Of a stretch of 36,466 nt of DNA, positions 27,753-33,006 are shown piece by piece (position 1 is the first letter of the stretch; each line of letters begins with the position of its first letter). The position numbers and the translations under genes were made by a program. The notes under the pieces were generated by a model. The model searched no databases. It was not told the DNA's origin and worked only from the letters and a program-made list of their open reading frames with translations. Source of the stretch: Acidimicrobiaceae bacterium (GTDB taxonomy: Bacteria > Actinomycetota > Acidimicrobiia > Acidimicrobiales > RAAP-2); the NCBI GenBank assembly GCA_003134515.1, contig PLBM01000039.1, forward strand, positions 510 through 36,975. Reading direction: 5' to 3'.

Positions 27753-30841
<3,089 letters not shown>

Positions 30842-30865: not shown

Positions 30866-32713
30866 ATGGCGCCAACCTTTTCTCTCGGCTACACCCTCGC
30901 GGGACGTTACCGAATCCTCGAACTGCTCGGCGTCGGTCAGACCGCCGAGGTCTACCTGGCCGAGGATCTCTCCTTGCATCGGCGCGTCGTCGTGAAGGTT
31001 CTCTTGGCGGATCTGGCGGCCCACGAAGATCTCCGTCGAACGTTTCGCGACCACATCGTTCGTGCCTCGACGTTAAGTCACCCCCATCTCGCGCGCGTCT
31101 TTGACGGGGGACAGGAGTCCGGCGCGATCTTCATGATCAGTGAGTACTTGAGCGGGGGATCATTAGAAGACGTGCTCAGCGCAGGACGTCGTTTGAGCGT
31201 GGACGACGGCGCGCGTTTGGGCCGTGACGTCGCGAGCGCGCTGGGCTACGCGCACGAGCACGGTTTCGTGCACGGCTCGCTCTCGCCCTCAAAGCTCCTA
31301 TTTGATGATGAGGGCCGAGTGCGCGTGAGTGACGTCGCGTTGGCCGGACTCGCCACGACGTACCGCGAGCGAATGACCCTCGATGACGCGCGCTACCTCT
31401 CACCCGAGCAGGCCGTGGGCGAACCGGCGAATCCCAAGAGTGACGTCTACGCTCTCGCGTTGATCCTCTTTGAGGCAGTTACTGGCAGCGTCGCCTTTGA
31501 GGGCTCGACGCCTGAGGCCGTGTTGCGTGCTCGACTGAACGCGCCCCTGCCGGTGCGTTTGGAACTCGGCACGCTCGACATGATTCTCGCCCAAGCGGCG
31601 GTGCCCGATCCTCGCCTTCGTCTCGACGCCGAGCAGTTCTCGGCGCGACTGAGCGCGGTCATTGGTGACGTCGCGCCCCTGGTCGTTCGACCGGGCAACG
31701 ACACACTCCCGCTCTTGGCGAATTTCTCGCCCCCCGAACCGCGACACTCGATCGGCTTTCGTGCGCCCTCGCCCGATCAGATCGTGGGGGGAACGATTGG
31801 ATCGGGTGGCGGGTTTCCTCGCGCGCCTCGATCTCGCGCCGCCGGTGAGGGAACTGACTCGCGCGGGCCCCGAGGTCCCCTGGGGCGAACCCCTCGATTC
31901 GAACGGGCCCAGTACGACTTACCGCGCGCGTCACGTCGCCGATGGGGCTTTCTCATCGCGGCGCTGGTCATCGTGGTCGCGACCATCGGCGCTGGGGCCG
32001 CGTGGAAGTCGGGTCTCTTCGCGAAGAAACTGACCGTACCGAGATTGATCGGACTTAGCCTCACCCAGGCGTCCAGCGCCCTCACGGGCGACGGCTTCAC
32101 CTTGACGGTGAACCATCGCGTGCACTCAACCAGCGTGGCGGCGAACGACATCGTCAGTCAGTCGCCGCTGGCCGATTCCAGCGCGAAATCGGGCCAAGTT
32201 ATTACGGTGAGCGTCTCGGACGGACCGATACTCGTCACGATGCCGACGAACCTATTGGGCGAGACGTGCGCGAACGCCACGACGCAACTCACGGCGCTGC
32301 ACGTTATCGCGCAGTGCCCCTCGTCGGCCGCGATCTACTCGAGCACGGTCGCGCTTAATGGCGTCGCTCGCGTGCTCTATCGAACGTCCGTCAATCCGAC
32401 TTCGGTGCCCCGCGAGGCGACGGTGGTGCTCTCGCTCTCGAAGGGGCCAGCGGTCGGCACGACTACCACCACCACCACGCCGACGTCGGGGACCACCACG
32501 ACCACCATCGCCGGCGAGGGGCCAAGGGCGGTGCCGAACGTGGTGGGTGACAACCAGGCCCAGGTCTACGCGGCTTTTCACGTAGCCCAGCTGTACTTCT
32601 CGACCACTGGCCCCAATCACAATTCCACCAAGTGGACGACCGTGGTCTCGGAAAGCCCGGTCGCGGGCACCATGGTCAAATGGCACTCCTACGTGACCTT
32701 GACGGTCAAATGA
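30866..32713 (+). CDS. PASTA-domain transmembrane Ser/Thr kinase-like protein, predicted pseudokinase
   Basis: Kinase fold with GVGQTAEVY loop, K44, SPEQAVGE, SDVYALALILFEAVTG; HRDxKPxN replaced by HGSLSPSK, DFG by DVA; TM at WGFLIAALVIVVATIGAGAAW; three PASTA-like repeats. Confidence 0.88.
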   Translation: MAPTFSLGYTLAGRYRILELLGVGQTAEVYLAEDLSLHRRVVVKVLLADLAAHEDLRRTFRDHIVRASTLSHPHLARVFDGGQESGAIFMISEYLSGGSLEDVLSAGRRLSVDDGARLGRDVASALGYAHEHGFVHGSLSPSKLLFDDEGRVRVSDVALAGLATTYRERMTLDDARYLSPEQAVGEPANPKSDVYALALILFEAVTGSVAFEGSTPEAVLRARLNAPLPVRLELGTLDMILAQAAVPDPRLRLDAEQFSARLSAVIGDVAPLVVRPGNDTLPLLANFSPPEPRHSIGFRAPSPDQIVGGTIGSGGGFPRAPRSRAAGEGTDSRGPRGPLGRTPRFERAQYDLPRASRRRWGFLIAALVIVVATIGAGAAWKSGLFAKKLTVPRLIGLSLTQASSALTGDGFTLTVNHRVHSTSVAANDIVSQSPLADSSAKSGQVITVSVSDGPILVTMPTNLLGETCANATTQLTALHVIAQCPSSAAIYSSTVALNGVARVLYRTSVNPTSVPREATVVLSLSKGPAVGTTTTTTTPTSGTTTTTIAGEGPRAVPNVVGDNQAQVYAAFHVAQLYFSTTGPNHNSTKWTTVVSESPVAGTMVKWHSYVTLTVK

Positions 32714-33006
32714 GTGATGGTTGCGAACTTTGCGAAGCGGCCGTCGTCACCAGGCGCTACTTCGAAGACGACACGTGTTGGATCGGTGACTGTGAGGTCT
32801 GCCTCGTGCCGATGGTGGTCTGGCGGGTGCACGACGCCGCGCCTCCAGCCGAGGTGATACGGCACCTGCACGACGCGCTGGCCGTGGTGGCCGACGAGGA
32901 GTTCGCGGCCACGCCGTGGACCATAGATGACCATATGCGAAATATTCCCGATCACTACCACGCGCACGCGCGGCCCCCGTACTTCTGGCGCCGGGGTCTG
33001 CGTTAG
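32710..33006 (+). CDS. Small Cys/His-rich protein of unknown function, translationally coupled to the PASTA protein
   Basis: 98 aa: CELCEAA...CWIGDCEVCLVPMVV...DDHMRNIPDHYHAHARP; ATGA overlap with the upstream stop. Confidence 0.75.
   Translation: MSDGCELCEAAVVTRRYFEDDTCWIGDCEVCLVPMVVWRVHDAAPPAEVIRHLHDALAVVADEEFAATPWTIDDHMRNIPDHYHAHARPPYFWRRGLR

Follow-up and report, generated by a model that had tools for sequence, protein, structure and literature searches.

A PASTA receptor with a degenerate kinase domain encoded downstream of ligA in Acidimicrobiales

The window, that is the whole stretch of 36,466 nucleotides analyzed here from an Acidimicrobiaceae bacterium, carries a gene for a PASTA receptor with a degenerate kinase domain (hereafter the receptor), the features of which are collected in Table 1. 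Its open reading frame begins 24 bases past the stop codon of ligA, and the upstream position of ligA is conserved in the genus and in most of the order. At the other end the stop codon overlaps the start of the next open reading frame within the sequence ATGA. The 98-aa product of the latter was without any NCBIfam match and contains the motifs CELCEAA and CWIGDCEVC. The original prediction placed the receptor gene between ligA and gatC. The ligA side of that placement was correct, but gatC, which starts at approximately 36321, is not adjacent, four open reading frames (98-aa protein, SDR, MFS transporter and alpha/beta hydrolase) lying in between.

Table 1. Features of the receptor locus, in coordinates of the window.
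Feature	Coordinates	Strand	Basis
ligA (NAD-dependent DNA ligase), upstream neighbour	28811..30841	+	ORF, conserved linkage
PASTA receptor pseudokinase, 615 aa, ATG start	30866..32713	+	ORF, Pfam, AlphaFold2, orthologues
Kinase-like domain, ~residues 8-265	30887..31660	+	Pfam, PDB sequence match, fold match
Degenerate catalytic loop HGSLSPSK	31271-31294	+	Sequence, orthologue alignment
DVA replacing DFG	31331-31339	+	Sequence, orthologue alignment
Conserved juxtamembrane motif IGFRAPSPDQIVG, ~residues 294-306	31745..31784	+	Orthologue alignment
TM helix, residues 359-381	31940..32008	+	AlphaFold2 secondary structure, sequence
Three extracellular PASTA domains, ~residues 388-452, 456-526, 557-615	32027..32710	+	Pfam, AlphaFold2
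98-aa Cys-rich protein, directly 3' of receptor in most of genus	32710..33006	+	ORF

The receptor consists, in order, of a cytoplasmic kinase-like domain, a juxtamembrane linker, a transmembrane helix and three PASTA domains. Pfam matches were obtained to Pkinase (1e-26, residues 15-218) and to PASTA (3.8e-20, in two stretches). The middle PASTA domain, which carries the cysteine pair C468/C484, lies outside both of these stretches, and its two cysteines are invariant among the genus orthologues. An AlphaFold2 model built from an alignment of 56 orthologues (mean pLDDT 85.6) showed a kinase fold with both lobes intact (pLDDT above 93 in most blocks), a G-helix at residues 216-224, a disordered juxtamembrane stretch and three confident extracellular domains. 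The nearest solved structure by sequence was PknB of Mycobacterium tuberculosis (PDB 1mru, 9.9e-36), while by fold the nearest were PknA/PknB. An intact kinase fold and three PASTA-like repeats, one with a second cysteine, had been expected from the sequence, and the Pfam search, the comparison with PknB and the structural model bear this out. Over its full length the receptor matched the NCBIfam model PknB_PASTA_kin (NF033483) with 267.7 bits, under the 450-bit equivalog cut-off, which was passed by the genome's own PknB (563) and by one intact ligA-linked orthologue (491).

Six catalytic residues were considered, namely the beta-3 Lys, the alpha-C Glu, the HRD Asp, the catalytic-loop Lys and Asn, and the DFG Asp, and only K44 (the VAIK-type Lys, here within VVVK) and D156 are kept in the receptor. 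His63 occupies the alpha-C Glu position, H136-G-S-L-S-P-S-K143 replaces HRDxKPxN, and D156-V-A replaces DFG, while SPEQ is kept (residues 179-182). All of these residue calls of the original prediction were confirmed in the sequence and the alignment. The activation loop is about four residues shorter than that of the intact orthologues, and their TEP and GT motifs are absent.

Orthologues were searched for in 99 genomes of the window's genus, and a strong match was obtained in 90. In the remaining nine the region after ligA is unassembled (six gave no match to ligA, and the contigs of the other three stop inside that gene or shortly past it), so that gene loss in these genomes is unsupported. 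An intact catalytic site is absent from all 58 distinct sequences of the genus. The HRD Asp and the catalytic-loop Lys and Asn, which all 39 intact orthologues keep, are gone from essentially all 58; the Asn is kept in no genus orthologue, the HRD Arg is replaced by Gly in 99% (weighted), and the HRD Asp position holds A, S, E, G, D or R. No single conserved substitute catalytic residue was found among the genus orthologues. K44, D156 and the GxGxxxxV loop are retained in the window protein and most of its subclade; in deep branches of the genus the beta-3 Lys has become His, Gln or Arg and D156 is sometimes lost too, with the gene kept. Pkinase and PASTA matches were retained in all 46 genus proteins scanned with Pfam. 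From these alignments, loss of catalysis in the receptor is well supported.

That the gene is a decaying pseudogene, or an artefact of sequencing, assembly or binning, might be suspected because the window comes from a fragmented draft genome that is 83% complete. This explanation is scarcely credible, since comparable substitutions occur in full-length open frames in 90 of the 99 genomes, the receptor is under strong purifying selection, and degenerate orthologues occur also in single-contig genomes of another family; the orthologues together with dN/dS rule it out. The genus orthologues lack an intact site throughout and stay linked to ligA. Orthologues with intact HRD and DFG, which the original prediction would have read as a sign of an artefact, were indeed found in other genera, but they do not imply one: because the degenerate gene occurs in 90 genomes of the genus, they point to evolutionary loss instead.

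The ligA-linked orthologue is an intact PASTA kinase (HRDxKPxN, DFG) in 18 of the 19 other sampled genera of the family, including one (g29) with HGD for HRD and all six catalytic residues, and the same holds for 18 further families of the order. Descent of the receptor gene from an ordinary intact PASTA kinase is thereby established. In trees calculated without the catalytic columns the genus forms one clade (SH-aLRT 95 and 97 in two trees). The ligA-linked kinase of L098 / L162, from another genus of the same family, reads HGDLKPSN, the HRD Arg being already Gly with the six catalytic residues kept; this kinase, sister to the degenerate genus (L099), is possibly an intermediate step.

Degeneration was also seen elsewhere. 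A second genus of the same family has HGAMKPAN or similar, with the beta-3 Lys changed to Arg, in five of five genomes. In another family, from which 44 sequences were drawn by a search of 27 genera, at least one of the six catalytic residues is missing in 43, and PASTA and Pkinase matches are kept in the 30 full-length members scanned. In members of this family (L091, L141-L156, L165-L192) the Gly loop is broken, and motifs like HTELTPSK or HGDIRPAN occur. The degree of decay varies among them, some keeping the HRD Asp or most of the residues (L166, L167). Four changes of state between intact and degenerate are required by the tree. When the kinase domain alone was subjected to AU tests, a union of the genus with the other degenerate family (p 0.26) was not rejected, nor was one with the second degenerate genus (p 0.46); the number of independent losses accordingly has to be judged from genome taxonomy and ligA linkage, with vertical descent assumed.

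For genus pairs with usable dS, dN/dS was approximately 0.03-0.16 in the kinase-like domain and approximately 0.07-0.34 in the PASTA part, the former being lower wherever both values were obtainable for a pair; of all regions of the receptor, the kinase-like domain is usually under the tightest constraint. Two pairs of intact orthologues gave kinase-domain values of 0.02 and 0.07. Purifying selection on the degenerate domain is thus established. Fifty-four positions are invariant in the 39 intact orthologues. Eight of them are catalytic, and in the genus these vary far more than sets of such positions drawn at random (P 0.00025), whereas the three N-lobe dimer positions tend to be well retained (P 0.049; 0.078 when only non-catalytic positions are compared). 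These three are R14 and D80 (100% conserved in the genus) and L37 (95%), presumably the counterparts of R10, D76 and L33 in M. tuberculosis PknB. All five proteins of the second degenerate genus keep the three, and among the 44 sequences from the second degenerate family R14 is found in 42, D80 in 38 and L37 in just 7. Conservation of the dimer residues would be compatible with a partner role, but is only modestly above chance. The loop beside D80 is newly conserved in its remodelled form (DWGE to DGGQExG), and P227, D238, A242 and R261 are new conserved C-lobe positions in the pseudokinases. Retention of the degenerate kinase domain as a protein-interaction module is supported by the selection acting on it.

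The juxtamembrane motif reads GFRAPSxDELTQ in sister genera and is retained in the genus as GFRAPSPDQIVG; its Thr has been lost in most of the genus, being kept in only about 10 of the 53 sequences in which the motif is seen. Elsewhere in the juxtamembrane region the genus sequences showed no conserved Thr. GFxxPSxD is common to the intact sister genera and the pseudokinases, which suggests a docking site predating the catalytic loss.

A canonical PknB exists in the same genome, as the original prediction had proposed to check. It lies on contig C45 directly 3' of a transpeptidase gene, whereas the receptor locus is linked to ligA, and has four PASTA repeats, HRDVKPGN and DFG. One further intact kinase, without PASTA, was identified in the family- and protein-based searches of the genome. 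Three FHA domains are encoded, two of which adjoin a PP2C phosphatase. MurJ is a 550-aa open reading frame, on reading of which no kinase-like C-terminal part was found. Encoded on C130 (approximately 30001-30396; L012:1132-1992) between a tatD-like gene and rsmA/ksgA is a protein of 286 aa that looks secreted, with two PASTA repeats and an apparently RlpA-like C-terminal part. In Actinobacteria the interval between tatD and rsmA/ksgA is the site of rpfB.

The receptor resembles the PknB/Stk1-type kinases (M. tuberculosis PknB, S. aureus Stk1, StkP) in its N-terminal Hanks fold, juxtamembrane linker, transmembrane helix and extracellular PASTA domains, and differs from them in the lost catalytic residues, the NF033483 score under the equivalog cut-off and the linkage to ligA. 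Seven bacterial pseudokinase families have been described, none of them reported with PASTA domains (PMC12599244, a 2025 review). One parallel among these is with the MviN pseudokinase of mycobacteria (ActPs3), which keeps the back-to-back dimer residues L750/D793 and is phosphorylated by PknB, whereupon FhaA is recruited (PMC12599244). Like MviN, the receptor is an actinobacterial pseudokinase with a tie to the cell wall and a shortened activation loop, and it has the dimer residues (L37/D80), although these are kept by ordinary kinases too and are not specific to ActPs3. In MviN, however, the kinase remnant is C-terminal on the lipid II flippase, has VALT for VAIK and is without PASTA (PMC12599244), whereas the receptor has PASTA domains, K44 and descent from an intact PASTA kinase.

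The ActPs1, ActPs2, DYD, DLHK, GLW and CP1 families are likewise degenerate Hanks-type domains, several of them membrane-associated and actinobacterial. As judged from the descriptions in PMC12599244, the receptor could be filed under none of the described families. For the ActPs3 signature (VALT, Lsidhps-like loop, DFG missing) it has VVVK, HGSLSPSK and DVA. ActPs2 is marked by a beta-3 Arg, an HRD Asp changed to Asn and an activation-loop insert of about 250 aa; here K44 is kept, the HRD Asp is Ser and the loop is shorter. ActPs1, in which the G-helix is missing in about 60% and the C-terminal domain is of PQQ type, is not matched either, the receptor having helix 216-224 and PASTA instead. 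The DYD / DLHK signature (beta-3 Lys replaced, HRD and/or DFG kept) is reversed, with Lys kept and HRD/DFG degenerate, and for GLW / CP1 (GLW in place of HRD, or a COG3899 fusion, no transmembrane helix) the receptor shows HGS, a transmembrane helix and PASTA. EssB/YukC of type VIIb secretion is also a membrane pseudokinase and acts as a scaffold, but belongs to another system, with other partner domains and without PASTA. A full-text search of the open-licence literature returned no PASTA pseudokinase family, which does not by itself prove that none has been reported.

Dead catalysis in several branches together with strong selection indicates that the receptor probably signals by partner binding instead of catalysis. 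That it is a non-catalytic PASTA receptor, as originally predicted, agrees with the absence of intact sites, the purifying selection on the degenerate domain and the intact PknB elsewhere. As to ligand, partner and sign of effect, we infer that the PASTA domains outside the cell would still bind peptidoglycan or its precursors, and that the dead kinase domain would relay their occupancy by using its retained back-to-back surface in the N-lobe (R14, L37, D80) to pair with a second kinase domain. The most plausible partner would be the kinase domain of the intact PknB, which the receptor might tune as an allosteric activator or as a competing decoy. Precedents are the binding of muropeptides and lipid II by the PknB PASTA domains (PMC6428115) and the allosteric activation of PknB and PknD by N-lobe dimerisation (PMC3601408). 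To a sensor of this kind, acting through protein contacts and plausibly through N-lobe pairing with PknB, we give about even credence; the pattern expected from a PASTA heterodimer with PknB would be equally expected from homodimerisation.

Three other explanations were weighed. By analogy with MviN, PknB may phosphorylate the dead kinase near the membrane and so recruit an FHA protein that regulates cell-wall synthesis. The FHA domains of the genome would suit such a scaffold, as would the conserved GFxxPSxD motif and a MurJ without an apparent kinase-like part, which would leave the job of the MviN pseudokinase vacant. Recruitment of an FHA protein through the ancestral juxtamembrane Thr is nevertheless weakened, this Thr being mostly gone, and neither the TEP and GT motifs of the activation loop nor a further conserved juxtamembrane Thr is at hand. 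Such a scaffold is less likely than pairing with PknB, and we regard it as rather unlikely.

The PASTA part alone may matter, for localisation, cell-wall binding or as a ligand sink, with an inert kinase remnant. PASTA is kept in all scanned members, and mycobacterial growth is altered when the extracellular PASTA part of PknB is overexpressed by itself (PMC4632501). An inert remnant is hard to reconcile with the kinase-like domain being usually more constrained than the PASTA part and having gained positions conserved only in pseudokinases, and an anchor of this type appears quite unlikely. Unlikely too, and slightly more so, is a residual or atypical enzyme that would still bind ATP and, by an unorthodox route, transfer phosphate or carry out some other ATP-dependent reaction. 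The Gly loop, K44 and D156 of the window's subclade favour it, and SelO and SidJ are bacterial pseudokinases with other chemistries (PMC12599244). Yet the HRD position drifts freely, the Asn is absent throughout the genus, deep branches have retained the gene without K44 and sometimes without D156, and no replacement residue is conserved. Against these alternatives stands the sensor that would pair with PknB. Extended to the order, it would mean that in Acidimicrobiales the PASTA kinase has repeatedly lost catalysis to become a co-receptor that heterodimerises with PknB and sets its activity, comparable to HER3 with EGFR, which is offered as a tentative proposal and may well not hold.

Among the sensors by which Gram-positive bacteria monitor the state of their cell wall, PASTA kinases are central, and there is still debate over how the kinase domain is controlled by PASTA binding. 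The receptor lineages amount to a natural separation-of-function experiment, in which catalysis has been lost while the kinase-like domain remains under strong selection with an active PknB alongside. Such degenerate receptors show which surfaces of PASTA kinases matter apart from chemistry, and they make the dimer-activation model testable. A group of PASTA pseudokinases is indicated beyond the seven families reviewed in 2025 (PMC12599244). If the co-receptor reading is true, non-catalytic PASTA receptors would be a general second arm of cell-wall sensing.
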